Positions 310-63,771 of a stretch of 64,000 nt of DNA are shown here, in pieces. Each line of letters begins with the position of its first letter. Position 1 is the stretch's first letter. The position numbers and the translations under genes are program-made. A model generated the notes under the pieces. It was not told the origin of the DNA, made no database searches, and saw only the letters and a program-made list of their open reading frames with translations. Origin of the DNA: Thioalkalivibrio sp. XN279 (lineage in GTDB: Bacteria > Pseudomonadota > Gammaproteobacteria > Steroidobacterales > XN24); assembly GCF_011089885.1 (NCBI RefSeq), contig NZ_JAANBD010000023.1, forward strand, positions 1-64,000, given 5' to 3'.

Positions 310-1494
310 CTACCAGGCCCGGCGCAGCACGGCCAGCGCCTCGTCGTGATCGACCTCGACCGGGTTGAAGATGATCGAGCCGTCATCGAGCGACATGGCA
401 GCGACCTGCTCCAGCTGGGATTCCTGCACCTTGCCGGTCTCGGACAGCGTGCGCGGCAGCCCGCAGCGCTGGTGGATCTCGTCCTTCAGCCACTTCAGGT
501 GCGCGATGGCCTTGTCGGCGCGCTGCTCGGGCGGCGTGGCGGCGTAGGTCTCGGCGCCGGCCAGCGGCAGCAGCAATTCGCCGATGGCATCGCGGCGCGC
601 CTCGAGGTTGTACTCCAGCACGGCCGGCAGGAGGATGCTCATGCAGGTGCCGTGGTGGACGTGGCACAGCGCGCCGACGGAGTGGCCGAGGGCGTGCACC
701 AGCCCGACCATGGAGTTGGAGAAGGCGACGCCGGCCATGGCGGCGGCCTGCGCCAGCGCGAGTCGGCCCTCTGCGTCGGCGGGATGGTCCAGCACGTGCA
801 GCAGGTTGGCGGACACGGCGCGGATCGCCGCGGTGGCGTAGGCGTCGCTCATCGGGTTCTTGGCCAGGCAGATGTACGCCTCGCAGGCGTGCGTCATGGC
901 GTCCATGGCGGTGGCGGCCGTGATCTGCGCCGGCAGCCCGAGGGTCATGCGCGGGTCGAGCACCGCCGCGTCGGGCATGAGGAAGGGCGAGGCGAAGGGC
1001 AGCTTCACGCCGCGCTCCTCGTCCTTGACGATGGACACGTAGGTGACCTCGGAGCCGGTGCCGGCGGTGGTCGGTATGACCAGCAGCGGCTTGAGGCGGC
1101 GCGGCAGGTTGCCGACGCCGGAATATTTCGCCGGGTCGTCGGTCTGGTAGGAGGCGAGGATGTTCGCCGCCTTGGCGGTGTCGATGGGTGAGCCGCCGCC
1201 CAGCGCAATGAGCGCATCGCAGCCGGCGTCACGATAGGTCCGCGCGATGGCCTTCACCGCGGCGAGCGAGGAGTCCGGCGGCACCTCGTCGTAGACGGCT
1301 GCGATCTCCAGCCCGCCCGTGGCAAGGATCTCGCGCAGCTTCTCCACCAGCCCGGCGCCGGCGACGCCGCGGTCGGTGACCACCAGCGGCCGCTTCGCGC
1401 CGAGCGCGCCGAGCTCGAAGGGGATGGTCTCCAGCGCGCGCGCGCCGGCGATCAGCTTCACGGGGCAGAAGAATTCGTAGTAGGTGTCGTTCAC
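310..1494 (-). CDS. Iron-containing alcohol dehydrogenase (first of two)
   Basis: This 394-residue protein is a group III, metal-dependent NAD(P) alcohol dehydrogenase with the usual family length. The nucleotide-binding motif GGGSPIDTAK lies near residue 100, followed by PTTAGTGSEVT. Metal ligands are expected in MDAMTHACEAY, LVHALGHSVG and the HVHHGTC stretch. The start is GTG at 1494 with GAGGAG five bases upstream, inside the end of the preceding SCP2-like gene, so the two genes are coupled. The substrate cannot be read from sequence; proximity to the wax-ester operon makes fatty alcohol/aldehyde interconversion plausible but unproven. Confidence 0.9.
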   Translation of the reverse strand: MNDTYYEFFCPVKLIAGARALETIPFELGALGAKRPLVVTDRGVAGAGLVEKLREILATGGLEIAAVYDEVPPDSSLAAVKAIARTYRDAGCDALIALGGGSPIDTAKAANILASYQTDDPAKYSGVGNLPRRLKPLLVIPTTAGTGSEVTYVSIVKDEERGVKLPFASPFLMPDAAVLDPRMTLGLPAQITAATAMDAMTHACEAYICLAKNPMSDAYATAAIRAVSANLLHVLDHPADAEGRLALAQAAAMAGVAFSNSMVGLVHALGHSVGALCHVHHGTCMSILLPAVLEYNLEARRDAIGELLLPLAGAETYAATPPEQRADKAIAHLKWLKDEIHQRCGLPRTLSETGKVQESQLEQVAAMSLDDGSIIFNPVEVDHDEALAVLRRAW

Positions 1495-1495
1495 G

Positions 1496-2020
1496 TCAGC
1501 TCCTCGTGACCAGGTCGAGCGCGATGCGGCCGTAGATCTTCAGGTTCATGCCCAGCTTCTCCCCGAGCCCGAGGTCCGCGGGGTAGCGCTTCACGCCGCG
1601 CGCTGCGATGAAGCGCGGCATCAGCAGCGCCTCGAGGCGGTACATGCAGCGCACCAGGCGGATGCCGGAAGCGAGGTCGCCGTCCACCACCATGCGATCG
1701 CGCGCGAACGCGGTCGGCGTGCTCTCGATGAAGGCGAAGACGCGGAATGCGTACTCGAGATGCTTGAAGCGGATGGCCAGGCCCAGCCCGTCGGGGAGGC
1801 GCCCGCCGAGATAGCGCAGGCGGCCGTCGGGCGTCTTTTCCAGCACCATGCTGGGCCCGTCGGGCAGGGTGGTCATGGCGATCACGATGCCGTCGGGGAA
1901 TCCCGCGGCCTCCGCGCGCACCACGGGGTCCACCCGGCTCATGGCGCGCAGGCCCCAGCCGACGATCCGCATCATCACGACGACGTACACGCGCTTCAGG
2001 CGCTGGCGGAGGCTGCTCAT
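1496..2020 (-). CDS. SCP2-like (sterol carrier type) domain protein
   Basis: This is a soluble protein of about 174 residues with no signal peptide. A central region, with a GLAIRFKHLEYAFR stretch followed by RMVVDGDLASGIRLVRCMYR, resembles the SCP2 lipid-binding fold, in which a hydrophobic tunnel carries acyl chains or sterols. I chose the internal ATG at 2020; an in-frame start at 2056 would add 12 residues. The stop lies one base before the GTG of the alcohol dehydrogenase, so they are one operon. A lipid-carrier role next to a dehydrogenase is inferred. The family call is tentative. Confidence 0.6.
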   Translation of the reverse strand: MSSLRQRLKRVYVVVMMRIVGWGLRAMSRVDPVVRAEAAGFPDGIVIAMTTLPDGPSMVLEKTPDGRLRYLGGRLPDGLGLAIRFKHLEYAFRVFAFIESTPTAFARDRMVVDGDLASGIRLVRCMYRLEALLMPRFIAARGVKRYPADLGLGEKLGMNLKIYGRIALDLVTRS

Positions 2021-2145
2021 GGAATCCGGCTCCCCGGTGGTTTTGCGGCGCTGCATCGTAGTGTAGCGCCGCCGGCCGCGTGCGTGTGCCTGTGCGGGCC
2101 ACGCGCCGCGGCTCGGGCTAGAATCGGCGCCGAGAGAGGTGAGTC

Positions 2146-2442
2146 ATGAGCATGGATTCCCTGAATTGCTGGCGCTGCGGCGCGGCGGTGGTCGACGAGC
2201 CCTTGCCCCTGTCGCGCACGGCGGCATGCCGCCAGTGCGGGGCCGAGCTGCACGCCTGCCGCATGTGCGAGTTCTACGACACCAGCAAGGCCAAGGCCTG
2301 CCGCGAGCCGGTGGCCGAGCCGGTGTCGGACAAGACGCGCGCCAACTTTTGCGGCTGGTTTCGCCCGCGCTACGGGCTGGCCGGCAAGCAGGACGATGCG
2401 GCAGCCGCGGCGCGCAAGGCGCTGGACGACCTGTTCGGCTAG
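2146..2442 (+). CDS. Small cysteine-rich zinc-ribbon-like protein
   Basis: This 98-residue protein carries a CWRCG pair, a CRQCG pair and a CRMCEFYD motif within the first 45 residues, then single cysteines near residues 52 and 69. The pattern fits one or two small zinc-binding knuckles. There is no membrane segment or signal peptide. A TAGAAT -10-like box lies at 2119-2124 and GAGG precedes the ATG. The 3' end overlaps the convergent acyltransferase stop by 4 bp. Similar small proteins are annotated only as hypothetical; I assign no function. Confidence 0.75.
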   Translation: MSMDSLNCWRCGAAVVDEPLPLSRTAACRQCGAELHACRMCEFYDTSKAKACREPVAEPVSDKTRANFCGWFRPRYGLAGKQDDAAAAARKALDDLFG

Positions 2443-3038
2443 CTCTTGCGGAAGCGCAACTCGCTGGCCTCGCCCGGGCGGCGGCCGCGCTTGTCGGCAT
2501 AGAAGGCACGGATCAGCTCCATGTCCTGCTCCGCGTCGCCGCTGAAGCGCACGAACTCCCTCAGGCCGACGGTCTTGGACGGGTAGTCGATGAAGCCGAA
2601 GCCGACCGGCACACCGGCCCGCACCGCGATCTGGTAGAACCCTGACTTGATGTGATCGGTATGCTTGCGCGTGCCTTCCGGCGCCAGTGCCAGCCACAGC
2701 CAGTCATGCGTGCCGAACTGTTCCACCGCTGCGCCGATGAAGCCGCTGGCCGCGCGCCGGTTCACCGGCACACCGCCCATGCGCCGCAGCAAGCCGCCGA
2801 AGGGCCAGCGGAACAGCGAGTCCTTGCCCATCCAATTGGTCGCCAGCCCGGTGCCGAAGCGGTACAGCACGGCGATGAGGAAATCCCAGTTCGAGGTGTG
2901 CGGGTAAACGATGATCACGCCCCGCGGGCCGGGCAGGGGCGCCACCACCGGCGTCCAGCCCATGGCTTGCAGCAGCCAGAGGCAGAAGCGCCGCCACCAG
3001 GACTGGCGCGACGGCTGGGTGGGGCGGTTGAGCTTCAT
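2439..3038 (-). CDS. PlsC-like 1-acylglycerol-3-phosphate acyltransferase family protein
   Basis: This 199-residue protein belongs to the lysophospholipid acyltransferase superfamily. The HxxxxD catalytic box appears as HTSNWD near residue 47, and the glycerol-phosphate-binding block is the ALAPEGTR stretch near residue 120. A hydrophobic N-terminal segment (residues about 18-45) would anchor it at the inner membrane. It is shorter than typical PlsC and resembles the small family often called acyltransferase of unknown acceptor. It may acylate lysophospholipid or a glycerolipid intermediate; the acceptor is unknown. The gene is convergent with the zinc-ribbon gene. Confidence 0.82.
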   Translation of the reverse strand: MKLNRPTQPSRQSWWRRFCLWLLQAMGWTPVVAPLPGPRGVIIVYPHTSNWDFLIAVLYRFGTGLATNWMGKDSLFRWPFGGLLRRMGGVPVNRRAASGFIGAAVEQFGTHDWLWLALAPEGTRKHTDHIKSGFYQIAVRAGVPVGFGFIDYPSKTVGLREFVRFSGDAEQDMELIRAFYADKRGRRPGEASELRFRKS

Positions 3039-3142
3039 GACTGGAGGCGCTCCCGGGGGTCGACTATGGTTAAGGGGCTAAATGTTGCAGCCAGGACGTG
3101 ACAGGGGAGAGGTGCAGCACACACAAGCAGAGGAGAGCACCC

Positions 3143-3616
3143 ATGACGACAACCGTTTGCCGGCAGTGTAACGCCGATACCATGCCATTGCGGCTCGGCC
3201 GCCTCGAGGGCGAAGAACACGGCGTGCACATAGTAATTGAAGGGCTGCCCGCGCTCGACTGCAGCAACGGGCACAAGCGCTTCCCGACCCCGGAGTTCCC
3301 GCTCGAGTTCATCCAGCGCATGCTCGGCGACGAGGGCCTGATCACCGCCGAGCCGGCGGTGGAGAAGGGCCTGTTCCGCAAGCGCCGGCTGTGCCCTGAC
3401 TGTGGCACGGAGCTGTCCGGCGAGCCGAACGGGAAAAGCACCCACCAGGCCACGGTCGATGTCCCCGACAGCGAGGCGGTCAGCGTCGAGCTTTCGCTGC
3501 CGGTGCAGAACTGCAGTTGTGGCCGTGAGGTCACCTTGCCGAAGAGCGAGGTCGAGCGCGGCGTCATGCAGGCGGCGGCGAACGCCTTCCGCAGCGCGGA
3601 GATTCCGCCGGGCTGA
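3143..3616 (+). CDS. Zinc-ribbon protein of unknown function
   Basis: This 157-residue protein starts at the ATG preceded by AGGAGAG. It has a CRQCN motif at residues 5-9, a single cysteine in DCSNGHKR, a CPDCGTE knuckle in the middle and NCSCGRE near the end, suggesting two zinc-binding sites. No signal peptide or membrane segment is visible. It is the second small cysteine-knuckle protein within 1.5 kb, but the two are not obviously related beyond the cysteines. Function unknown. Confidence 0.75.
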   Translation: MTTTVCRQCNADTMPLRLGRLEGEEHGVHIVIEGLPALDCSNGHKRFPTPEFPLEFIQRMLGDEGLITAEPAVEKGLFRKRRLCPDCGTELSGEPNGKSTHQATVDVPDSEAVSVELSLPVQNCSCGREVTLPKSEVERGVMQAAANAFRSAEIPPG

Positions 3617-3633
3617 GCGCCAGTGCGGGGGGG

Positions 3634-4725
3634 CTACTCCGGCGTCATTTCTCCGCTGCCGCGTTTCGCGGCCAGGTAGCCCTGCACCATTTCCAGCGCG
3701 CTCTGCTCGCAGGGCGGCATTTCGACATGGGTCTCGTGCAGCGGCGTGATGCGCTCGCCCCAGCGCAGCAGCTGCGCCGACCAGGTGAGGCCGCCGCCGA
3801 AGCCGGTCAGCAGGATGTTGGCGCCGGGCTTGATGCGGCCTTCCTCCAGCGACTCGACCAGCGCCACGGGCACCGTCGCCGCCGACATGTTGCCGTAGCG
3901 GTGCACGTTGACGAAGCAGCGGTCCATGGACAGCCCGGCGCGCTTGATCACGGCCTCGATGATGCGCAGGTTGGCCTGGTGCGGCACGACGAGATCGACG
4001 TCCTCCGGCCCCATGCCGCACTGTTCGAGCACGGCCTGGCAAGCCTGGCTCATGCCTACCACGGCGCGCTTGAAAATCTCCTGGCCCTCGAACACCCACT
4101 GGGTATCGCCGTTGTACCAGCCGCAGTTGGCGTAGCGCTGCCCCATGCCGTGCACCAGCAGGATCTCGCGCACTTCGCCATAGCAGCCGAGCTTGCTGGC
4201 GCGCAGGCCCTCGTCCTTGTCCGTCGCCTGCAGCACGGTGGCGGCGCAGCCGTCGCCGAACAGCACCGCCACGCCGCGGTCGGTCCAGTCCATCAACGGC
4301 GAGATGAGTTCGCCGCCGATCACCAGCGCGTTGTTCACCACGCCTTGCGAGATCATCGCTGCGGCGCTGGTGAGGCCATAGAGATAGCTGGTGCAGGCGG
4401 TGTTCACGTCCATGGCGCCGGCATTCACCGCGCCGATGCGTTTCTGCACACCGGAGGCCGTGTTGGGCACCTGCTGGTCGAAGCTGCAGGTGCCGAAGAC
4501 GATCAGGTCGAGCGCGTCGGGCGCGAGATCGGCGCAGGCGAGGGCGCGATGCGCCGCGATCGTCCCCATCTCCTCCAGCGACAGGTGGGAGATGCGACGC
4601 TCGCGGATCCCGGTGCGGGTGGTGATCCACTCGTCGTCGGTTTCCAGGAAAGTGGAGATGTCGTCGTTGGTCAGCGTAGCCGGTGGCATGCACTTGCCCC
4701 AGCCGGTGATGGTCGCGTTTCTCAC
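3634..4725 (-). CDS. 3-oxoacyl-ACP synthase III (FabH-type thiolase-fold condensing enzyme)
   Basis: This 363-residue condensing enzyme has the full catalytic triad: Cys111 in DVNTACTS, His249 in PHQAN and Asn279 in NVHRYGNMSA. FabH-type enzymes condense an acyl-CoA with malonyl-ACP to start fatty-acid chains; related enzymes (OleA) join two acyl-CoAs head to head. About 363 residues is longer than E. coli FabH (317), so the primer may be unusual. I moved the start to GTG 4725, which has GGGGA eight bases upstream; the longer GTG at 4752 overlaps the -10 box. Given the lipid neighbourhood it may supply chains for wax ester. No OleBCD partners are adjacent. Confidence 0.88.
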   Translation of the reverse strand: MRNATITGWGKCMPPATLTNDDISTFLETDDEWITTRTGIRERRISHLSLEEMGTIAAHRALACADLAPDALDLIVFGTCSFDQQVPNTASGVQKRIGAVNAGAMDVNTACTSYLYGLTSAAAMISQGVVNNALVIGGELISPLMDWTDRGVAVLFGDGCAATVLQATDKDEGLRASKLGCYGEVREILLVHGMGQRYANCGWYNGDTQWVFEGQEIFKRAVVGMSQACQAVLEQCGMGPEDVDLVVPHQANLRIIEAVIKRAGLSMDRCFVNVHRYGNMSAATVPVALVESLEEGRIKPGANILLTGFGGGLTWSAQLLRWGERITPLHETHVEMPPCEQSALEMVQGYLAAKRGSGEMTPE

Positions 4726-4753
4726 CCGAGGATTCCCCGCAGCAAATTGCACG

Positions 4754-4791: not shown

Positions 4792-5220
4792 CTATATCCG
4801 GACGAGGTGAGTGTGGGTGGCGCCCGCCACAGAGTTCAGCGGGATCGAGCGGTCGAAGCTGACCAGGCGCGCGTCGTGCTGCACGGCCAGCGCCAGCAGG
4901 TAGACGTCCGTGACCTGGCGCGAGCCGAGGACCGCGTTCCAGTCCACCACGCCCTCGTGCAGCAGGCTCACTGCATCAGGCCAGAACGCGTGCCAGCGCG
5001 TGGCGGTGGCGGCTCGGAGCCGCGCGGCCACGGCGGCGGCGGGCAGGGCGCCGGGATAGGACGGCTGGGACATGATGCGGATGCAGCCGTTCTCCGTCAG
5101 CGGACATGAGGCCCAGCCCTGCTCGATATTGGCCGCCAGCCAGGCGTGGGCGGTTGCATGGTGGACGTGGTCGGCATCGAGCAGCGCGATGAGGACGTTG
5201 ACGTCCAGCAGCGCCCGCAT
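4792..5220 (-). CDS. VapC-type PIN-domain ribonuclease toxin
   Basis: This 142-residue protein is a PIN-domain endoribonuclease, the toxin half of a type II toxin-antitoxin pair that typically cleaves initiator tRNA or rRNA. The first acidic residue sits in LLDVNVLIALLD (Asp5), the second in LTENGCIRI (Glu), and the C-terminal acids in VTDVYLLALA and SFDRS. Its ATG overlaps the antitoxin stop by one base (TGATG), the usual coupling in vapBC pairs. All expected acidic residues are present, so it looks active. Confidence 0.88.
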   Translation of the reverse strand: MRALLDVNVLIALLDADHVHHATAHAWLAANIEQGWASCPLTENGCIRIMSQPSYPGALPAAAVAARLRAATATRWHAFWPDAVSLLHEGVVDWNAVLGSRQVTDVYLLALAVQHDARLVSFDRSIPLNSVAGATHTHLVRI

Positions 5221-5468
5221 CAGATGCCCTCTTCGTCCCGCAGCCGCTCCACCAGCTCGTCGCTGACGACGACGCCCCGCGAAGCGAAGGGCCGGAAACC
5301 GTAATGCGCCGCCGGCTCGGCGACGACGCCGGTCGTGAGGGCGTCACCCTGGGTCATGGCGCGTCGTAACAGCTCGGACACCACCCGCCCGGTAGTTTTG
5401 CGTTCGCGACGCGCGCGTTCCTTGGCCGCGGCCAGTACGTCGTCATCGATATCCAGGGTGGTCCGCAT
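5220..5468 (-). CDS. VapB-type antitoxin
   Basis: This 82-residue antitoxin has an N-terminal ribbon-helix-helix-like segment beginning MRTTLDIDDDVLAAAKERA and a C-terminal region expected to wrap the toxin. Three ATG codons stand in a row (5474, 5471, 5468). GGAG lies immediately before the first, so the third gives the best six-base spacing and is chosen. The family normally neutralises its VapC and represses its own promoter; the repeats at 5481-5522 are the likely operator. Confidence 0.83.
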   Translation of the reverse strand: MRTTLDIDDDVLAAAKERARRERKTTGRVVSELLRRAMTQGDALTTGVVAEPAAHYGFRPFASRGVVVSDELVERLRDEEGI

Positions 5469-5480
5469 CATCATCTCCGT

Positions 5481-5522
5481 TGATGCGGTGATGCTAGTGC
5501 ATCAGGTGCGTTGATGCAATCA
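5481..5522. promoter_or_regulatory. Probable VapB operator (TGATGC/GCATCA repeats)
   Basis: The 51-bp gap ahead of the antitoxin holds TGATGC at 5481-5486, the palindrome TGATGCTAGTGCATCA at 5489-5504 and TTGATGCAATCA at 5511-5522. Repeated half-sites just upstream of a ribbon-helix-helix antitoxin are typical of toxin-antitoxin autoregulation. The last copy overlaps the stop codon of the wax synthase gene. Confidence 0.6.
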
Positions 5523-7013
5523 GGACGTGCGGCCCCGGCTCCCGGCAGCCCTCTTGCGCGTCGCGCCCGTCTTTTTTCTCGTCGCGGTAGTCTTGCGCCG
5601 CGTCTGCGGCTTGCGCCCCAGCAGCGCCGCCTCCAGCTCCTCGACAGCATCCGCCGTGTACACGGCGATCTTCTGCATGCTCGGCACCGTGGTATGGCAG
5701 GCCGTAAAGCCGAAGTTCATCAGCCCGGCGTAGCTCTCGCAGGTGATGTTCAGGGCCTGTCCCTGGGTGACGATGGAGGCCGGGTAGATCGCCACCAGCT
5801 CGGCGCCGCGGAAATACAGCGGCTGGTCCGGGCCGGGCACGTTGGAGATGGTGATGTTGAACATGGGCCGGATGCGCCCGCCGATGCCGGTCAGCAGGGT
5901 GATGATGGTGGGCGCCATCAGCAGCATGGTGTATTGCAGCATGGCGCGGCGCGGCAACTGCCGCACGTGGTCCTTGCCGTGCTGCACTGAGGCCTTGATC
6001 GAAGCCAGGCGCAGCTTCGGGTCGACGATGTCGGTGCCGAGCGTGGCGAGGATGAAGCTGATGGCGTTGCCGGCGCCTTCGTCGTCCTTGGGGCGCACCG
6101 AGACCGGGATGCCGGCCACCAGCGGCTTTTCCGGCAGGCTGTCGCGTTCCGCCAGGTAACGCCGCAGCGCGCCGCCGCAGACGGTCAGCACGATGTCGTT
6201 GATGGTGCAGCCGCCGGCGTCGGCCAGCTTGCGCAGGCGCTCCAGCGGGAACTGCTGGGTGGCGAAGCGCCGCTTCTCGCGAACGCGGCCGTTGAGGATG
6301 GACATGGGCGTGTCGAAGGGGATGGCGAGGCCGTCGTCATCGCCGCCGATGCGCTTGAGAAACTGCGCGAAAGCGGTCACGAGCTGCGGCACGGTGCGCA
6401 CCTGGGCGCGCAAGCCGCCGATGGCCGAGGCCATGACGTTGGCCATGGTCGGCACCGGCGCCGACTTGCCGGGCTGCGACTTGCGCCGGCCGCGCTGGGC
6501 CCAGAACGGCGGCAGGTCGAGGCTTTCCTCCCGATCGAAGGACATGGCGCGCTGCAGCAGCATCATGCCGCTGACGCCGTCGATGAGCGAGTGGTGGATC
6601 TTGATGAACAGGGCGAAGCGATTGCCCTTCAGCCCCTCGATCACCGTGCATTCCCAGGGCGGCCGGCTGAGGTCGAGAGGCGTGCTCTGCAACAGGCCGA
6701 TCATCTCGCCCAGCTCGCGCTCGCCGCCCGGCCAGGGCAGGCCGGCGTGGCGCACGTGGTACTCGAGGTCGATGTCCTGGTCTTCGACCCAGGCGGGTAC
6801 CGGGTTCTTGGTGAAGGGATACTTCAGGCGCCGGTTCCAGGGCGCAGTGAAACTGCGGTGACTGCGGAACTCGGCCATGAGCTGGCGCAGGTAGTCCTTG
6901 GGCGCATCGTCGGGCAGGCGGAACTGCAGCAGGCCGCCGACGTGATTGGGCGTGGCCCGCGACTCGGTGAACAGCCAGGCGGTGTCGAGCGGGTTGAGCC
7001 GGGTGGCGCTCAT
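5520..7013 (-). CDS. Wax ester synthase / diacylglycerol acyltransferase (WS/DGAT)
   Basis: This 497-residue protein makes wax esters or triacylglycerol from acyl-CoA and a fatty alcohol or diacylglycerol. The catalytic HHxxxDG motif is HHSLIDG at residues 140-146, and the length suits the family (about 450-480) plus an extra tail. The final 30 or so residues are rich in Lys, Arg, Thr and Ala, unusual for WS/DGAT. Its ATG overlaps the stop of the reductase-like gene as ATGA, so expression is coupled. It most likely performs the last step of the operon, with products deposited in cytoplasmic lipid inclusions. Confidence 0.93.
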   Translation of the reverse strand: MSATRLNPLDTAWLFTESRATPNHVGGLLQFRLPDDAPKDYLRQLMAEFRSHRSFTAPWNRRLKYPFTKNPVPAWVEDQDIDLEYHVRHAGLPWPGGERELGEMIGLLQSTPLDLSRPPWECTVIEGLKGNRFALFIKIHHSLIDGVSGMMLLQRAMSFDREESLDLPPFWAQRGRRKSQPGKSAPVPTMANVMASAIGGLRAQVRTVPQLVTAFAQFLKRIGGDDDGLAIPFDTPMSILNGRVREKRRFATQQFPLERLRKLADAGGCTINDIVLTVCGGALRRYLAERDSLPEKPLVAGIPVSVRPKDDEGAGNAISFILATLGTDIVDPKLRLASIKASVQHGKDHVRQLPRRAMLQYTMLLMAPTIITLLTGIGGRIRPMFNITISNVPGPDQPLYFRGAELVAIYPASIVTQGQALNITCESYAGLMNFGFTACHTTVPSMQKIAVYTADAVEELEAALLGRKPQTRRKTTATRKKTGATRKRAAGSRGRTS

Positions 7014-9220
7014 TCAGTCGCTTTCTTGCGCGCAGCCGGCTTTTTCTTCGCCGTCGCCTTGCGGGTGGTGGCTTTCTTTTTCGTGGCAGGCTTGCGGGCC
7101 GGCGCCTTCTTGCGCGCACTCTTCTTTGCAGCAGCCTTCTTCTTCGCTGCCGGTTTCTGCGCCGGCTTCGCGTCGCCGCCGCCCTGCCAGGTCTTGCGTG
7201 CCTCCTTGGCCAGCGCCACCACGCGGGCGATGTCCTCGTCGGTGTAGACGCCGTTGGCGCCGGAGATCGCCGCCAGCTTCATGCCGTGCCTGAGGCCGAG
7301 CTTGTAGATCTCCTTGACCTTCTCCCACTCGGTGTCGCGGCCGATGGTGAACACCTCGAAGCGGCCCTCGAGGGCGAGGACGATGGTCTCCGCCAGGCAG
7401 GCATAAATCACGTTCGGCGGCAGGCCGATGTTCTTCAGCCCCTTCACCGGCGTCGGCAGCTCGATCTCGCCGGACTCGATGACCAGCACGTCGGGCCGCT
7501 TGGCGACCTCTTCGGGCGGCAGGTCCAGCGGCCGCGCCACGTCGGTGATGACGCAGCCGGGCTTCACCTTGGTGATGTCGAGGATCTTCTTGCCGGCGCC
7601 CGAGGTCGAGGTGACGATCATGTCCATCTCGCCGAGCAGCTCGTCGTAGTTGGTGGAGCAGACCACGTTGGCGCTCGGCGTGTCCTTGAGGATCGAGGCC
7701 TTGAGACGCTCCAGCTTCTTCATGTCGCGCCCGGCGATGACCACTTCCTCGAAGGCCATGGCGAGCAGCCGCGCACTGACCGAGCCGATGGAGCCGGTGG
7801 CGCCGATCACCATGGTCTTGGCCATGACGTGCTTGTCCACCGGGTGCAGCTTCACCAGGCCCATGCGTTTCATGGCGTCGTGCGCGGCCCACAGCGCACC
7901 CGAGGCGGAGTAGCTGTTGCCGGTGGTGATGGGGATGCGCGCGCGCCGCGCCACGGTGACGCCGGCGTCGCCCACCACCTTGGTGAAGGCGCCCAGGCCC
8001 ATGATCTGCGCGCCCAGCTTCTCCGCCATCTTCGCCGCGGCGAGCAGGCGGCGGTACGTGAACTCGGGGCTGCGCGCCAGCATTTCCTTGGGCGTGCCGC
8101 CGACGGTGATCAGCCAGCCCTCGGCCTCGGCGCCGGTGGGCGAGATGATGTTTTCCATCTTGCAATAGATCATCGGCGGCAGGTGCGCGGCCAGGGACTC
8201 GACGCGGTTCATGACGAACTTCGGCGTGCCCTTCGGCACAGGGAAGCCCTTGCGGATGTATTCCTGGCTCAGCGGGTGGATGACGAAGGCGAAGCGGCGG
8301 ATGTCGCGGAACTTCCCGCTCGGGTGCAGCAGCCGCGGCTTGATGTCGAGCTCCTCGATGATCTCGATGAAATCGTCGTCGGACACGGCCTCGTGGGGCT
8401 TGCGCAGGGAAGCGAGGACCATCGCCTCGAGCACGTTGATGCCGACCACCTTCTCGAACAGCTGCGGCGAGACGTCGACCACCAGGTTGACCTTGCAGGC
8501 TTTGAAGAAGGCTGCCGCCTCCTCGTCCACCGCCGAGGTGATGAGCGTCTTGCCGGCGAGGTTCTTCGCCGTGCCGACTGCTTTCAGCTCCGGGAAGGTG
8601 CCGACGATGACATGGGCCTTGGCCACCTCGCGCGCCATGCACTTGCTCTTGAACCCGGTGAGCGCGCTCTCGAGCATCTCGCCCGGCCGCCCGGACAGGA
8701 CCATGTCGCTGCCCCTGGCGTACAGCTCCAGCTGGCGCAGGGAGGTGAGCATGGTCGGCGCGCCGGTCTGCGCCAGCGCGTCGGCAAAGCGCAGGTTCGG
8801 CGTGTAGTCGGACATCGCCAGCGCCATGTCGTAGTTGCGCATGCCCGAAAGGAACAGCACCAGGTTGTTGTTGAAGTAGCTGCCGAGGTGGTTCTGCACG
8901 TAGCGCACCGCGCTGACCTGCAGCAGCCGCCGCAGCTTGGCGCCCGTGGTCACGGGGACGCGCGTCACGACCTTGGTGAGGCGCCGCGTCTCGCGGTTGG
9001 TCACGGTGTCCTGGCCGACGTGGTAGTGGTCGGCGACCTCGCCCAGTCCGATGGCGTCCGCCTTGCCCTGCGCGCGCCGCATCAGCTCCCAGGCCCTGTT
9101 GACGTCACCGTCGGCGCCCACGCGGCGCACCTGGAAGCGGTGTCCCAGGAAGTCGGTCTCGAATGAGAAATCACGCTCGGACGAGCCCAGCGTGACGGCA
9201 ACAACTCTCTTCATGCTCAT
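7010..9220 (-). CDS. Acyl-ACP/acyl-CoA reductase-like protein with histone-like tail
   Basis: This protein of about 736 residues starts at ATG 9220 behind GGGGA. Residues about 1-270 form an N-terminal domain beginning MKRVVAVTLGSSERD that I know only from proteins annotated loosely as quinate or shikimate dehydrogenases. Residues about 380-680 resemble cyanobacterial long-chain acyl-ACP reductase: a GLGAFTKVV segment, an ITTGNSYSASGALWA segment and a Rossmann motif VIGATGSIGS near residue 470. The likely reaction is NAD(P)H reduction of a thioester to fatty aldehyde. About 54 C-terminal residues are Lys/Ala/Pro repeats like histone H1. It lies between an alcohol dehydrogenase and the wax synthase. 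Substrate form (ACP or CoA) is inferred. Confidence 0.72.
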   Translation of the reverse strand: MSMKRVVAVTLGSSERDFSFETDFLGHRFQVRRVGADGDVNRAWELMRRAQGKADAIGLGEVADHYHVGQDTVTNRETRRLTKVVTRVPVTTGAKLRRLLQVSAVRYVQNHLGSYFNNNLVLFLSGMRNYDMALAMSDYTPNLRFADALAQTGAPTMLTSLRQLELYARGSDMVLSGRPGEMLESALTGFKSKCMAREVAKAHVIVGTFPELKAVGTAKNLAGKTLITSAVDEEAAAFFKACKVNLVVDVSPQLFEKVVGINVLEAMVLASLRKPHEAVSDDDFIEIIEELDIKPRLLHPSGKFRDIRRFAFVIHPLSQEYIRKGFPVPKGTPKFVMNRVESLAAHLPPMIYCKMENIISPTGAEAEGWLITVGGTPKEMLARSPEFTYRRLLAAAKMAEKLGAQIMGLGAFTKVVGDAGVTVARRARIPITTGNSYSASGALWAAHDAMKRMGLVKLHPVDKHVMAKTMVIGATGSIGSVSARLLAMAFEEVVIAGRDMKKLERLKASILKDTPSANVVCSTNYDELLGEMDMIVTSTSGAGKKILDITKVKPGCVITDVARPLDLPPEEVAKRPDVLVIESGEIELPTPVKGLKNIGLPPNVIYACLAETIVLALEGRFEVFTIGRDTEWEKVKEIYKLGLRHGMKLAAISGANGVYTDEDIARVVALAKEARKTWQGGGDAKPAQKPAAKKKAAAKKSARKKAPARKPATKKKATTRKATAKKKPAARKKATE

Positions 9221-9249
9221 ATCTTCGTCCCCAGGTATTCTCTCGCGCC

Positions 9250-10515
9250 TCAGGCGGCGGCCTTGCGGCGCCGCTCCGGCGGCGCGGACGGCGGCAACAC
9301 GCGGCGGATGATGTCCTCGCATTGCCGCTGCGTCATGTAGCGCGGCACCGGGTAGCCGGTCTCCGCCTCGTGGCAGGCCGCCTTCGCCAGCGCCGGGATG
9401 TCCTCTGCGCGCAAGGCGTCGAGGTGCGTCGGGATCCCCAGTTCCCGGTTCAGTTCGACCACGGCGGCGATGAATTTCTTCGCCAGAGTGCGCTCGTTCT
9501 CGTGCTCTTTGCCCAGGCCGGCGCGCACCGCGAGGGCGGCGAGGCGGCCGCCGATCTTCGGCGCCGAGAACTCCAGCACGTGGGGCAGCATGATGGCATT
9601 CGCCAGGCCGTGGGGCGTGTGGTACTTGCCGCCGAACTGGTGCGCGATGGCGTGCACGTAGCCGACATTGGCACGGGTGAAGGCCATGCCGGCGTAGGTC
9701 GAGGCCAGCGCCATCTTCTCGCGCGCCTCGAGGTTGCCGCCGTCGTGGTAGGCGGTGCGCAGGTTCTCGAAAATGAGCCCGACCGCCGACAGGCCCAGGC
9801 CGTCGGTGTAGTCCGTGGCCCACTTGCCGACGAAGGACTCGACCGCGTGTGTCAGCGCGTCCATCCCCGTGGCGGCCGTGATATGCGGTGGCAGCCCGGT
9901 CATCAGCGCCGGGTCGAGCGCCGCCATGCGCGGCACGATGCGCGTATCCACGATGACCAGCTTGCTCTCCTTGTCCGGGTCGGAGATCACGGCGGCCACG
10001 GTGACCTCGGAGCCGGTGCCCGCGGTCGTCGGCACGGCGTAGACCGGGACCGGGTTGCGCAGGCCCTTGAAGTAGCCGGCCAGCTTGCGCAGCGGCTTGC
10101 CCGGGTTGGCGATGGCCACCGCCACGGCCTTGGCGGCGTCCATGGAGGACCCGCCGCCGACCGCCACGATGGCGTCGCAGCCCTCGGCGCGGTAGAAATC
10201 GATGGCCCGCTCGACCAGCGGTATCGGCGCGTCCGGCGTGATCTCGTCGAACACGGCGTACTGCGCGCCGCCGGCCTCGAGCGCGTCGGTCAGGCCCTTG
10301 AGCAGCCCCAGCTTCACGATCATGGCGTCGGTGACGATCATGAGCTTCTCATGCCCGAATCCCGCCACGGCCTGGCCGAGGCGGCCGCTGGAGCCCGGGC
10401 CCACCAGCAGGGTCGGGCGCGGGATGGGCAGGAAGCGGGTCACCATGCCGGCGCCCTTCATCAGGGCGGACAAGCCGGTGGCACGCGGTGCTTCGGGAAT
10501 CAGGTCGAGAATCAC
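9250..10515 (-). CDS. Iron-containing alcohol dehydrogenase (wax operon)
   Basis: This 421-residue group III alcohol dehydrogenase has GGGSSMDAAK for nucleotide binding and PTTAGTGSEVT. Metal-site regions include MDALTHAVESF, YVHAIAHQFGG and YHTPHGLANA. It is first in the operon, 29 bp upstream of the reductase-like gene. The natural role would be reduction of the reductase's aldehyde product to a fatty alcohol for the wax synthase. It is only distantly similar to the dehydrogenase at 310-1494, so the two probably have different substrates. The C-terminus ends in a short ERRRKAAA basic patch. Confidence 0.9.
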   Translation of the reverse strand: MILDLIPEAPRATGLSALMKGAGMVTRFLPIPRPTLLVGPGSSGRLGQAVAGFGHEKLMIVTDAMIVKLGLLKGLTDALEAGGAQYAVFDEITPDAPIPLVERAIDFYRAEGCDAIVAVGGGSSMDAAKAVAVAIANPGKPLRKLAGYFKGLRNPVPVYAVPTTAGTGSEVTVAAVISDPDKESKLVIVDTRIVPRMAALDPALMTGLPPHITAATGMDALTHAVESFVGKWATDYTDGLGLSAVGLIFENLRTAYHDGGNLEAREKMALASTYAGMAFTRANVGYVHAIAHQFGGKYHTPHGLANAIMLPHVLEFSAPKIGGRLAALAVRAGLGKEHENERTLAKKFIAAVVELNRELGIPTHLDALRAEDIPALAKAACHEAETGYPVPRYMTQRQCEDIIRRVLPPSAPPERRRKAAA

Positions 10516-12001: not shown

Positions 12002-12880
12002 ATGACCAGCGACCTGCCGTTCGACGGGGCGGTAAGCCGTTATCTCGCCGCGGAGGCGCCGGAGGAAGTGCGGCTTGCCGTGGAAGAGGGCAAGAAGCGC
12101 GACATCCTCGACGACAGCTATCCGTATGAGCGCTGGCTGAAAAAGCCCGACTACGAGGACGAGCTCGACCGGCTGCAGATCGAGCTGGCGAAATGCCAGC
12201 GCTGGGTGCAGGACAGCGGAGCGCGGCTGGTGGTGATCTTCGAGGGTCGCGACGGGGCGGGGAAGGGCGGCGCCATCCGGCGCATGACCATGAACCTCAA
12301 TCCGCGCGTGGCGCGCGTGGTGGCGCTGTCCAAGCCCAGTGAACGTGAGCGCAGCCAGTGGTATTTCCAGCGCTACGTGCCGCACCTGCCCGCGGCGGGC
12401 GAGATCACGCTGTTCGACCGCAGCTGGTACAACCGCGGCGTCATCGAGCAGGTGTTCGGTTTCTGCACGCCGGAGGAGCGCGCCCGGTTCTTTGCACAGC
12501 TGCCGGGCTTCGAGAGCACGCTGGTCAGCGAGGGCATCGTGCTGGTGAAGCTGTGGCTCAACGTCGGCCGCGCCGAGCAGCTGCGGCGCATGCTGGCGCG
12601 GGAATCCGACCCCCTCAAGCAGTGGAAGCTCAGCGCCATCGACATCCAGGGGCTGGCACGCTGGGACGACTATTCAAACGCCATCGAGCAGACCTTCCGC
12701 CGCAGTCACACGCCGGTGGCGCCGTGGACCGTGATCCGGGCCGACGACAAGTACCGCGCGCGGCTGGCCGTGATCCGGGCCGTGCTCGGGGTGCTGGACT
12801 ACACCGGCAAGGACGAGACCCTGGTGGACGGCAACGACCCGGCGATCTGCGGCGGGCCGGAGCTGTGGCGGCCGGCCTGA
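12002..12880 (+). CDS. ppk2: Polyphosphate kinase 2 family protein
   Basis: This 292-residue PPK2 transfers phosphate between polyphosphate and nucleotides, usually favouring nucleotide phosphorylation. Walker A is EGRDGAGKGG (residues 81-90), Walker B lies in LFDRSWYNRG (Asp139), and the lid contains many arginines. The single-domain length fits class I PPK2. A strong AAGGAGGTGACCC ribosome site precedes the ATG. It lies divergent to the TMEM175-like gene and 38 bp upstream of the FadL-like gene. Whether it uses ADP, GDP or AMP cannot be settled by reading. Confidence 0.92.
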   Translation: MTSDLPFDGAVSRYLAAEAPEEVRLAVEEGKKRDILDDSYPYERWLKKPDYEDELDRLQIELAKCQRWVQDSGARLVVIFEGRDGAGKGGAIRRMTMNLNPRVARVVALSKPSERERSQWYFQRYVPHLPAAGEITLFDRSWYNRGVIEQVFGFCTPEERARFFAQLPGFESTLVSEGIVLVKLWLNVGRAEQLRRMLARESDPLKQWKLSAIDIQGLARWDDYSNAIEQTFRRSHTPVAPWTVIRADDKYRARLAVIRAVLGVLDYTGKDETLVDGNDPAICGGPELWRPA

Positions 12881-12918
12881 ACCGGCCGGCTCGGCGAACC
12901 TGCAGCCTGGAGAGAGTG

Positions 12919-14151
12919 ATGCTCGGTTCCCGACGCCGTTTGCTCGTCAGCATGTTGTTCCTCACGGCGGCCAGCAGCCCGGCCTTCGCGCGCCCTTACC
13001 CGCTCGGCACCGGCCTTGCCGCGTCCGCGGACAGCGCGCAGACCGCGGGCTCCAACCCTGCGGGCATCGCCCGCTTCAACGAGCGCGCGCTCAGCTTCGA
13101 GTTGCTGTATTTCAGCAGCGAGTCGCGGTGGGAAAGCGCCTTCAGCGGCACCGGCGCCGAGTTCAACACGAACAGTTCCGGCGACACCGTCGTGCCCCGG
13201 GTCGCCCTCGTGCAGCCCATCAACGACAGGTTCACCGCGTCGTTCACTTTCCTCGGCACGGGCTTCTCCGACAACCTCGGGGAGTGGCCGGGACGCTATT
13301 TCATCCAGAGCTACGACTCGGTGTTCGTCAGCGCCTTCCCGAGCCTGGCCTACCGCATCAACGAGCAATGGTCGGTCGCCGCCAGCGCGGCAGTCACCTA
13401 TAACCGCTTCGAGCAGGAGCGGGCGGTCCGCAACATCTTCGACCCTGGCTTTCCCGATGGGCTCTCCAGGATCGAGGCCGACAGCGTTTCGTTCGGGTTC
13501 GGGCTGTCAGCGCTCTACCAGGGCAGCGAGCGCACCCGCTGGGGGCTGACCTACAGCTCGGAGATCAATCCGCGGCGCCGTGCAGACAACGCGCTTTCCG
13601 GGCTGGGGCCGAACACGGAGGCCGTCATGCGCGGCCTCGGGCTGCTGGAGCGCAACCTCACTATCGAGAGCACGTCGCCGGAGTCCATATTCGCCGGCGT
13701 CTACCACGAGTTCGGCAACAGGTCCGCCGTGACGCTGGACGTGGCGTGGATCAACTTCAGCAATTTCCGCCTCTCGGAGTTCTTTTACGACGGCGAGTCT
13801 TTCGCGCGCAACGACAGCAGCTATGACGATATCTACGCGCTGAGTGCGAGCTACACGTGGCCGGCCGCGGAGCGCTGGATGCTCGGCGTGGGTGCGATGG
13901 CGACCAACCAGATGATCGATGACGAGCAGCGCGGCATGACGCTGCGTCTCGACGCGGCCTGGTCGCTCGGCCTCACGGCCGAATGGCAGTGGACCGACAA
14001 GCGCCGGGTGATGATGGGCCTCAGCTACTTCGGCCTCGGCGACGCGCCCGTCGCCACGCCCAGCATCCCGGGTCTCGGCTCGCTGGAGGGCCGGTTCAAG
14101 TCCCGCGATACCTTCCTGTTCCAGGTCGGGATAAGCTTCGGGTCGCTTTAG
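12919..14151 (+). CDS. FadL/OmpP1-type outer-membrane transporter
   Basis: This 410-residue precursor has a signal peptide ending near AFA-R. The mature N-terminus starts with a GTGLAASADSAQTAGSNPAGIARF stretch, which is the plug/hatch signature of the FadL family (alternating small residues and SNPAG). The rest is a long beta-barrel ending in GISFGSL. FadL proteins take up long-chain fatty acids or hydrophobic aromatics through the outer membrane. The gene follows PPK2 closely, with GGAGAGA before ATG. In a wax-forming strain it could import substrate, but that link is inference. Confidence 0.85.
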   Translation: MLGSRRRLLVSMLFLTAASSPAFARPYPLGTGLAASADSAQTAGSNPAGIARFNERALSFELLYFSSESRWESAFSGTGAEFNTNSSGDTVVPRVALVQPINDRFTASFTFLGTGFSDNLGEWPGRYFIQSYDSVFVSAFPSLAYRINEQWSVAASAAVTYNRFEQERAVRNIFDPGFPDGLSRIEADSVSFGFGLSALYQGSERTRWGLTYSSEINPRRRADNALSGLGPNTEAVMRGLGLLERNLTIESTSPESIFAGVYHEFGNRSAVTLDVAWINFSNFRLSEFFYDGESFARNDSSYDDIYALSASYTWPAAERWMLGVGAMATNQMIDDEQRGMTLRLDAAWSLGLTAEWQWTDKRRVMMGLSYFGLGDAPVATPSIPGLGSLEGRFKSRDTFLFQVGISFGSL

Positions 14152-59439: not shown

Positions 59440-60426
59440 TCAGGTACCGGCGCCGACCGGTCGCAACACCTCCATGACGAGGTAGGCGGTATAGCCGATG
59501 TAAGCGGCCAGCAGCAGGGCACCGGCAGGGCGGTTGATACCGCCGCGGCCGCGGAAGCCGTAGCCGATGAGGAACAGGGCCAGGGTCAGCGAAGCCATGA
59601 CCAGTATGTCTCGATTGAAGACCTCCGGCCCCACCGCCAGCGGATGAATCGTGCCGGCGATCCCGACTACAGCCAGGGTGTTGAACAGGTTGGAACCGAG
59701 GATGTTGCCGAGCGCGATGTCATGTTCGCCCTTCCGGGCGGCAATGATTGATGCCGCCAGTTCGGGCAGCGAGGTACCGACCGCGATGACGGTCAGGCCG
59801 ATGATCAGGTCGCTGACGCCGAAGCCGTGCGCGATCTCCACCGCGCCCCAGACCAGGATCCGGGAACTGACGATCAAGAGGGCCAGACCGACCGCGAGCC
59901 AGAACGCGGCACGGCGCACGGGCATGGCGCGAAGCTCGAGCTCCTGCTCGATGTCCTGCCCCAGGGCATCCGCCTTGGTCCGCAAGCCGTGCCAGATGGC
60001 CCAGCCCATCAGCCCGGCGAACACCGCCAGCAGCACGGCAGCATCCAGGCGGGTGATCTCTCCGTCCCAGAGTTGCCAGGCCGCCAGGGCCGTGACGCCC
60101 ATCAGGATCGGCAGTTCCTTGTACAAGACTTGCGAATTGACGGCGATTGGGGCGATCAGGGCCGTCACCCCGAGGATCAGGGCGATGTTGGTGATGTTCG
60201 AGCCATAGGCGTTGCCGAGGGCAATCCCGGGGTTGCCCTGCAAGGCAGCCAGGGCCGAAACCAGCATTTCCGGTGCGGAAGTGCCGAAGCCTACGATCAC
60301 CATGCCGATCAGGAGCGGCGGCGTGCCGTAGTGGTGGGCGACGGAGGCCGCCCCCTCCACGAAGCGGTCGGCGCTCCAGACCAGGAGCACGAGGCTGAGA
60401 ATTACCGTGATAAAAGCCAGTGTCAT
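59440..60426 (-). CDS. Calcium/sodium antiporter (YrbG-type), copy A
   Basis: This 328-residue CaCA protein has ten membrane helices in two halves. The alpha-1 motif is VGFGTSAPEMLVSALAA and the alpha-2 motif AVGTSLPELAASIIAA; each has the Glu that binds Ca2+. A short hydrophilic loop (about 155-175) joins the halves. It is very similar to copy B at 62785, with identical DNA blocks of about 67 and 80-90 bp. ATG 60426 is chosen. Confidence 0.93.
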   Translation of the reverse strand: MTLAFITVILSLVLLVWSADRFVEGAASVAHHYGTPPLLIGMVIVGFGTSAPEMLVSALAALQGNPGIALGNAYGSNITNIALILGVTALIAPIAVNSQVLYKELPILMGVTALAAWQLWDGEITRLDAAVLLAVFAGLMGWAIWHGLRTKADALGQDIEQELELRAMPVRRAAFWLAVGLALLIVSSRILVWGAVEIAHGFGVSDLIIGLTVIAVGTSLPELAASIIAARKGEHDIALGNILGSNLFNTLAVVGIAGTIHPLAVGPEVFNRDILVMASLTLALFLIGYGFRGRGGINRPAGALLLAAYIGYTAYLVMEVLRPVGAGT

Positions 60427-62784: not shown

Positions 62785-63771
62785 TCAACCGACTACCGCG
62801 GGCGCCAGCAATACCTCCCTGACAAGGTAGGCCGTGTAGCCAAGATAAGAGGCCAGCAGCAAGGCGCCCGCGACGCGATTGATACCGCCGCGGCCGCGGA
62901 AGCCGTAGCCGATGAGGAACAGGGCCAGGGTCAGCGAAGCCATGACCATCATGTCCCGGGTGAAGACCTCCGGCCCCACCGCAAGCGGATGAATCGTGCC
63001 GGCGATCCCCACCACTGCGAGGGTGTTGAACAGGTTGGAACCGATGATGTTGCCGAGCGCGATATCGTGCTCGCCTTTCCTGGCGGCAATGATTGACGCC
63101 GCCAGTTCCGGCAACGACGTGCCCACCGCGATGACGGTCAGGCCGATGATCAGGTCGCTGACGCCGAAGCCGTGCGCGATCTCCACCGCGCCCCAGACCA
63201 GGATCCGGGAACTGACCACCAGGAGCGCGAGGCCGACGACAAGCCAGAATACGGCACGGCCCACGGGCATGGCCCGAGCCTCGAGTTCCTGCTCGATGTC
63301 CTGCCCGAGCGTGTCCGCCTTGGTCTTCAAGCCCTCCCAGATGGCCCAGCTCATCAGTACCACGAACAAGGCCAGCAGACCGACAGCCTCCAGCCGGGTG
63401 ATCTCGCCGTCCCAGAGTTGCCAGGCCGCCAGTGCGGTCACACCCATCAGGATCGGCAGTTCCTTGTGCAGGACCTGCGATTGGACGGCAATCGGGGAAA
63501 TCAAGGCCGTCGCCCCGAGAACCAGGGCGATGTTGGTGATGTTCGAGCCATAGGCGTTGCCCAGCGCAATGCCGGGATTGCCCTGCGAGGCGGCCAGTAT
63601 CGACACCATGATCTCGGGGGCGGAAGTGCCGAAGCCTACGATCACCATGCCGATCAGGAGTGGCGGCGTGCCGTAATGGTGGGCGATGGAGGCCGCGCCC
63701 TCGACGAAGCGGTCGGCGCTCCAGACCAGGAGCACTAGGCAAAGGACGACCGCGACAAAGGCGAGTGTCAT
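62785..63771 (-). CDS. Calcium/sodium antiporter (YrbG-type), copy B
   Basis: This 328-residue CaCA antiporter is a close copy of 59440-60426. The alpha motifs VGFGTSAPEIMVSILAA and AVGTSLPELAASIIAA are intact. Differences cluster at the N-terminus, in the linker and at the C-terminus, while long runs around the alpha-2 motif are identical in DNA. Both copies look functional. ATG 63771 is chosen. Confidence 0.93.
   Translation of the reverse strand: MTLAFVAVVLCLVLLVWSADRFVEGAASIAHHYGTPPLLIGMVIVGFGTSAPEIMVSILAASQGNPGIALGNAYGSNITNIALVLGATALISPIAVQSQVLHKELPILMGVTALAAWQLWDGEITRLEAVGLLALFVVLMSWAIWEGLKTKADTLGQDIEQELEARAMPVGRAVFWLVVGLALLVVSSRILVWGAVEIAHGFGVSDLIIGLTVIAVGTSLPELAASIIAARKGEHDIALGNIIGSNLFNTLAVVGIAGTIHPLAVGPEVFTRDMMVMASLTLALFLIGYGFRGRGGINRVAGALLLASYLGYTAYLVREVLLAPAVVG

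Follow-up and report, generated by a model that had tools for sequence, protein, structure and literature searches.

In the window, that is, the whole 64-kb stretch of Thioalkalivibrio sp. XN279 DNA to whose positions all coordinates refer, three closely packed genes occupy 5520-10515 on the reverse strand in the order alcohol dehydrogenase (ADH) - reductase - WS/DGAT wax ester synthase. The reductase and the synthase both end in basic tails that are predicted to be disordered and are rare in the genome. Such tails recur, with their composition kept, on the enzymes of this pathway in relatives, where they are linked to a tailed phasin. Tentatively, and with a likelihood that we place close to even, the tails may anchor the wax enzymes and the nascent inclusions electrostatically to a polyanion, for which nucleoid DNA is the likeliest candidate. 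H1-like tails that connect inclusions with DNA are a known kind; what is new is the presence of such tails on biosynthetic enzymes, at several consecutive steps.

The operon and the tails of its enzymes

An earlier reading of the window from its letters alone (the original prediction) had described three co-directional, tightly spaced genes, the last two overlapping as ATGA. Gene calls and profile matches bore out this arrangement, and the basic tails that it had reported on the reductase and the synthase were found again in the sequence (about 55 and 31 residues). The features of the operon are the following:

9250-10515, reverse strand: iron-containing alcohol dehydrogenase (Fe-ADH), gene 1 of the operon; PF00465 and PF25137
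7010-9220, reverse strand: AAR-like long-chain acyl-thioester reductase, 736 aa; PigE/AAR matches, VIA-align Z 27 to 6jzq
5520-7013, reverse strand: WS/DGAT wax ester synthase, 497 aa; TIGR02946, PF03007, PF06974, Foldseek matches to 6chj/7nxg
7010-7013, reverse strand: ATGA, in which the stop codon of the reductase and the start codon of the synthase overlap, read from the sequence
7013-7177, reverse strand: C-terminal tail of the reductase, about 55 aa, K/A/P-rich, net charge +21, predicted to be disordered; GDAKPAQKPAAKKKAAAKKSARKKAPARKPATKKKATTRKATAKKKPAARKKATE
5523-5615, reverse strand: C-terminal tail of the synthase, about 31 aa, K/R/T-rich, net charge +13, predicted to be disordered; RKPQTRRKTTATRKKTGATRKRAAGSRGRTS

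The synthase is a bona fide member of the WS/DGAT family. It matched TIGR02946 with an E-value of 3e-137 and 458 bits (cut-off 309.95 bits), both WS_DGAT domains (PF03007 and PF06974) scored above cut-off, and its HHxxxDG motif is intact, with H140, H141, D145 and G146 invariant in 16 sequences. The fold matched 6chj and 7nxg in Foldseek. These WS/DGATs of Marinobacter and Acinetobacter share the family, the fold and the HHxxxDG motif (37% and 36% identity in the structural alignment), and the sequence matches to them stop at query residue 461-464, just ahead of the tail of the window synthase. The presence of the reductase and the ADH in the same operon points to wax ester as the product, and the ATGA overlap is likely to couple the translation of reductase and synthase.

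The reductase was named AAR-like only, because it reached 69 bits against the AAR equivalog TIGR04058, whose cut-off is 449.7; its scores were far under the PigE and AAR equivalog cut-offs alike. Its residues ~308-665 have the reductase fold of the cyanobacterial AAR (VIA-align against 6jzq: Z 27 across 322 residues) and of the N-terminal reductase domain of PigE (4ppm). Its catalytic cysteine is aligned with theirs (Cys607 in the numbering of the 735-residue alignment copy, the motif ACLAE aligning with ACFAE of AAR, where the residue is Cys294) and is invariant across 26 relatives. Unlike AAR and PigE, the window reductase has an additional N-terminal part of ~300 residues and the K/A/P tail. 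No Pfam match was obtained for this N-terminal part (codons 8317-9217, reverse strand), which is confident in the predicted model and present in the orthologues too; that it may serve for acyl carrier docking is raised here as a question only.

The tail of the reductase contains 19 K, 4 R, 1 D and 1 E, and that of the synthase 5 K, 8 R and zero acidic residues; the ADH too has a basic C-terminus, though a short one (PPERRRKAAA). In the AlphaFold2 models the confidence score pLDDT was below 50 at residues 680-735 of the reductase and 471-497 of the synthase, the cores being mostly confident, so that both tails are predicted to be disordered. Tandem repeats were looked for beneath both tails and none were found, and the K and A residues of the tails use mixed codons. 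The tails therefore do not stem from a recent expansion of repeats.

The rarity of such tails was assessed in a background sample made up of the window and 20 other stretches of the XN279 genome (464 kb in total, ~15% of the genome, 347 called genes). The basic-tail criterion, applied to the last 30 residues, required K+R of at least 8, D+E of at most 2, a net charge of at least +7 and few hydrophobics, and it was passed by only two of the 347 genes, namely the reductase and the synthase of the operon. Under the strict rule, 15 of the 22 WS/DGATs of the family passed, versus 0 of 345 background genes (Fisher p 1e-21, a nominal value since the 22 WS/DGATs are related). Strong tails were also present in loci of 46-47% GC (L160 and L170, both in genome G149), where two WS/DGATs have Lys/Ser/Val-rich ends with net charges of +17 and +18. 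This indicates that such tails are not bound to high GC. Chance or a GC artefact was rejected in view of the 0/345 background genes, the tailed loci of 46-47% GC and the absence of tandem repeats.

Recurrence of the tails and their link to a phasin

When one genome of each species was scanned, at least 80 reductase loci were obtained, mostly from Burkholderiales and Rhodocyclales; the locus counts given below refer to the loci listed. Two culturable relatives are among them, Comamonas badia (L045) with the operon and Inhella (L062 and L068) with ADH and reductase. Tails were present in 70 of the 77 complete reductases, with a median of 69 residues and a net charge of +17, and reached 146 residues. 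All ten complete synthases of the same subfamily that these loci encode were tailed, as were 31 of 68 ADHs, many Burkholderiales orthologues of the latter having a full K/A/P tail; in six loci ADH, reductase and synthase were all tailed. The original prediction had named the lack of tails in all close homologues as its refutation, and nearly all close homologues proved to be tailed.

The mean pairwise identity of the reductase tails was 22% (17% when shuffled), versus 84% for the core. Their composition across the relatives was 23% K, 33% A, 11% P and 1.4% ILMFWYC, the proportion of K being 7% in the reductase core. Charge and composition are thus kept and sequence barely so, a pattern expected of an electrostatic disordered region.

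In the XN279 genome three WS/DGATs are encoded, each with a basic C-terminal tail, the third one short, and of the 22 WS/DGATs in the seven family genomes, 18-19 have tails. The reductase orthologues of five other family genomes all carry tails (39-104 residues), and two distant reductase paralogues of the family (34-38% identity) are without one. No reductase was found in the sixth other genome (G006, same genus), in which the sole match was that of the tail to the Lys-rich tail of another protein. A PF05597 phasin and PhaC are encoded in all seven family genomes. The phasin has a basic tail in all five from which its gene was recovered (G000, G001, G004, G005 and G006, that of the window included), and PhaC lacks a basic tail in all seven, the XN279 genome included. 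The idea that the tail is a general trait of storage proteins was thereby rejected in part.

A class-wide sample comprised 185 genomes, 13 of which have a WS/DGAT match. Strong WS/DGAT tails were found in two genomes, G149 (two genes) and G173, while G118 has a weak one, so that outside the family and the Burkholderiales/Rhodocyclales the trait is patchy. A strict pairing of tailed WS/DGAT with tailed phasin fails in this sample (G149, G113 and G118).

Among the other genes of the reductase loci, 19 of 411 passed the strict tail rule, and most of these encode phasins. A PF05597 (PhaF/PhaI) phasin lies inside the fetched flanks of 16 of 80 loci, and 14 of the 16 phasins passed the rule. In 13 loci, all from Rhodocyclales, the phasin gene immediately follows that of the reductase, is co-directional with it and encodes a K/A/P-rich C-terminus:

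Loci L079, L082, L085, L086, L088, L089, L091-L095, L099 and L100: conserved gene order ADH - reductase - tailed phasin in Rhodocyclales

In most of them more co-directional genes follow the phasin, and the WS/DGAT is on the opposite strand. The cluster of L086 contains genes for a GMC oxidoreductase, an aldehyde dehydrogenase, a patatin-like lipase, a TetR-type regulator and a TPR-like protein, with the WS/DGAT ~3 kb further on the other strand, and in Variovorax (L056) the row reads phasin, patatin, TetR, ADH, reductase. From its gene content, the phasin-containing cluster looks like one for wax/lipid inclusion metabolism. In the XN279 genome the tailed phasin is located elsewhere than the operon. 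As a side observation, in two Comamonas loci an XRE-type helix-turn-helix protein encoded just upstream of the ADH is also K/A/P-tailed (L042, 2870-3610; L045, 2891-3628).

Known tethers and candidate partners of the tails

The known tethers between inclusions and nucleoid (PhaF, PhaM, PhaH, AlgP and MLDS) are coat or accessory proteins. PhaF of Pseudomonas, a PF05597 protein that serves storage inclusions, resembles the window reductase in its disordered Lys/Ala/Pro-rich C-terminus, a feature of the PhaF/PhaI type; the tail of the synthase is shorter and richer in Arg and Thr. The PhaF tail sits on a structural coat protein, whereas here the tails sit on biosynthetic enzymes, and the PF05597 domain of PhaF was absent from the reductase, the synthase and the ADH in the Pfam search. 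Histone-like domains of PhaF and PhaM bind DNA and spread polyhydroxybutyrate (PHB) granules along the nucleoid (PMC13052382), and in Herbaspirillum an HC2-like protein rich in Lys, Ala and Pro ranks second in abundance among the proteins of PHB granules (PMC3783465). The comparison with PhaF, already drawn in the original prediction, was strengthened by the same-tailed phasin that follows the reductase in the 13 Rhodocyclales loci and by the tailed phasin of the XN279 genome.

MLDS of Rhodococcus jostii RHA1, the other analogue that had been proposed, is a fair one. It is a neutral-lipid inclusion protein with a Lys-rich C-terminus, and its DNA binding has been demonstrated: the C-terminal PAKKA region binds DNA irrespective of sequence, and the binding is lost when Lys is replaced by Glu (PMC5504291). 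However, MLDS coats droplets in Actinomycetota and is not an enzyme, and the likeness concerns its C-terminus. In Pseudomonas aeruginosa, AlgP has an H1-like KPAA tail, is located at polyphosphate (polyP) granules and is required for their spacing (PMC9239181); unlike the window proteins it is not an enzyme, and its tail consists of long regular KPAA repeats, whereas those of the window are without tandem repeat. No reports of basic tails on WS/DGATs or their reductases, or of a wax synthase together with nucleoid or phasin, were found in the open-licence literature, which is weak evidence of absence. When a 2025 review on the positioning of bacterial organelles was text-searched for wax, triacylglycerol and lipid droplets, none of the three was mentioned (PMC13052382).

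In the mechanism proposed here, the reductase would convert an acyl-thioester into a fatty aldehyde, the ADH would convert the aldehyde into a fatty alcohol, and the synthase would form wax ester from fatty alcohol and acyl-CoA at the surface of the growing inclusion. WS/DGATs act at the membrane and droplet surface, and a location at the inclusion surface is likely from what is known of the family. The tails of reductase and synthase, as disordered polycations, would act as sequence-nonspecific electrostatic anchors; the nucleoid would hold the enzymes by their tails, and the nascent wax inclusion would be attached through the synthase. They would thus do for wax inclusions as PhaF and PhaM do for polyhydroxyalkanoate (PHA) granules and MLDS for triacylglycerol droplets, and would keep consecutive enzymes of the pathway near each other. 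The nucleoid is considered the most likely anchor because of the composition and disorder of the tails, the biology of the inclusions and the phasin linkage. The tethering put forward in the original prediction gained from the tails of the homologues and the likeness to PhaF and MLDS; the binding by the tails, the choice of DNA rather than another acidic surface as partner and the positioning of inclusions by the tails are what we infer.

A more far-reaching proposal, which seems to us possible though rather doubtful, is that the whole wax pathway is addressed by charge: reductase, synthase, often the ADH, and the phasin would have acquired or kept H1-like tails, inclusions would form on the nucleoid and spread along it, and the biosynthetic enzymes would be the DNA tethers. 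If anchoring on the nucleoid is true, the enzymes themselves would set the birth and placement of wax inclusions, and many Burkholderiales and Rhodocyclales would have fitted the same cheap device to several enzymes of a single pathway. A practical caution is that trimming or tagging the tails may mislocalise engineered wax synthases.

Several observations weigh against anchoring on the nucleoid. Seven of the 77 close reductases are untailed (L102, L106, L111, L112, L114, L116 and L117), and so are most WS/DGATs of the class-wide sample, in which G149 has both synthases tailed and its phasin untailed. The tail of the window synthase is short (~31 aa) and Arg/Thr-rich, not of the AAKP type. The neighbourhood of reductase and phasin is concentrated in one order and may go back to one evolutionary event, and the phasin may serve PHA, not wax. 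Given these untailed reductases and WS/DGATs, catalysis presumably does not require the tail, and wax storage does not always involve it.

Binding of the tails to anionic phospholipid, by which the soluble reductase and the amphitropic synthase would be held at the inner membrane, where wax droplets start, and at the droplet skin, with DNA uninvolved, is regarded as a serious rival, if an unlikely one. It would suit the membrane and droplet surface at which WS/DGATs act, polycationic tails bind acidic membranes, and it would account for tails on consecutive enzymes of the pathway, Arg/Thr-rich versions being equally suitable. However, the nearest compositional analogues with data (the tails of MLDS, PhaF and AlgP) act on DNA or the nucleoid, the hydrophobic and aromatic residues often present in membrane-binding tails are almost lacking (1.4% ILMFWYC in the reductase tails), and the same-tailed PF05597 phasin comes from a family that tethers granules to DNA. 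The linkage to this PhaF-type phasin would be left unexplained if the tails served chiefly for self-assembly of a pathway condensate, RNA or ribosome binding, or solubility, with chromosome position irrelevant. We hold such a role to be improbable, although disorder and charge without conservation of sequence suit any electrostatic role and all three consecutive enzymes are tailed in six loci.

PolyP as the partner, with the wax enzymes on or near polyP granules in the manner of AlgP, is another serious rival, though one of little likelihood. The PhaF-like KPAA tail of AlgP does sit at such granules (PMC9239181), and a PPK2 gene is present in the window (12002-12880), but this gene is divergent and outside the operon, and AlgP binds DNA too, so that the two readings overlap. 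Finally, an origin of the tails as neutral by-products of low-complexity, GC-rich DNA at the ends of genes is very improbable. The great variation in their length (up to 146 residues in the reductase) and sequence would fit such an origin, but it is contradicted by the enrichment in K (23% versus 7% in the core), by the mixed codons without tandem repeat, by the count of just two such tails among 347 called genes and by equally strong tails at 46-47% GC (L160 and L170).

Origin of the operon and other genes of the window

In a tree of reductases, the sequences of the window and of Thioalkalivibrio sp. XN8 were placed within a mainly beta-proteobacterial group of 64 rows with strong support (99), next to Comamonadaceae/Burkholderiaceae and separate from the remaining genera of their family. 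The order ADH-reductase-WS is common to the window and its relatives, and an identical ATGA overlap is present in L039, L043, L080 and L108. The simplest reading of the tree position together with the shared order and overlap is therefore that the operon was acquired laterally from a Burkholderiales-like donor. When the presence of the tail was labelled on the tree, at least four changes were needed, which indicates that tails were gained or lost more than once.

Other genes were noted around the operon and further away in the window:

4792-5474, reverse strand: VapBC-like toxin-antitoxin pair directly downstream of the synthase, with a VapC-family PIN protein (TIGR00028) and a weak VapB antitoxin match just below the Pfam cut-off
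310-4752, reverse strand: lipid genes downstream on the same strand as the operon, encoding a KAS III/FabH-like synthase (3634), a PlsC-type acyltransferase (2439) and a second iron alcohol dehydrogenase (310)
12002-14151, forward strand: genes divergent from the operon, encoding the PPK2 polyphosphate kinase (12002-12880) and then a FadL/TodX-type outer membrane protein
59440-60426 and 62785-63735, reverse strand: two similar membrane proteins encoded a short distance apart, both starting near VLLVWSADRFVEG, apparently a duplicated exchanger-type transporter

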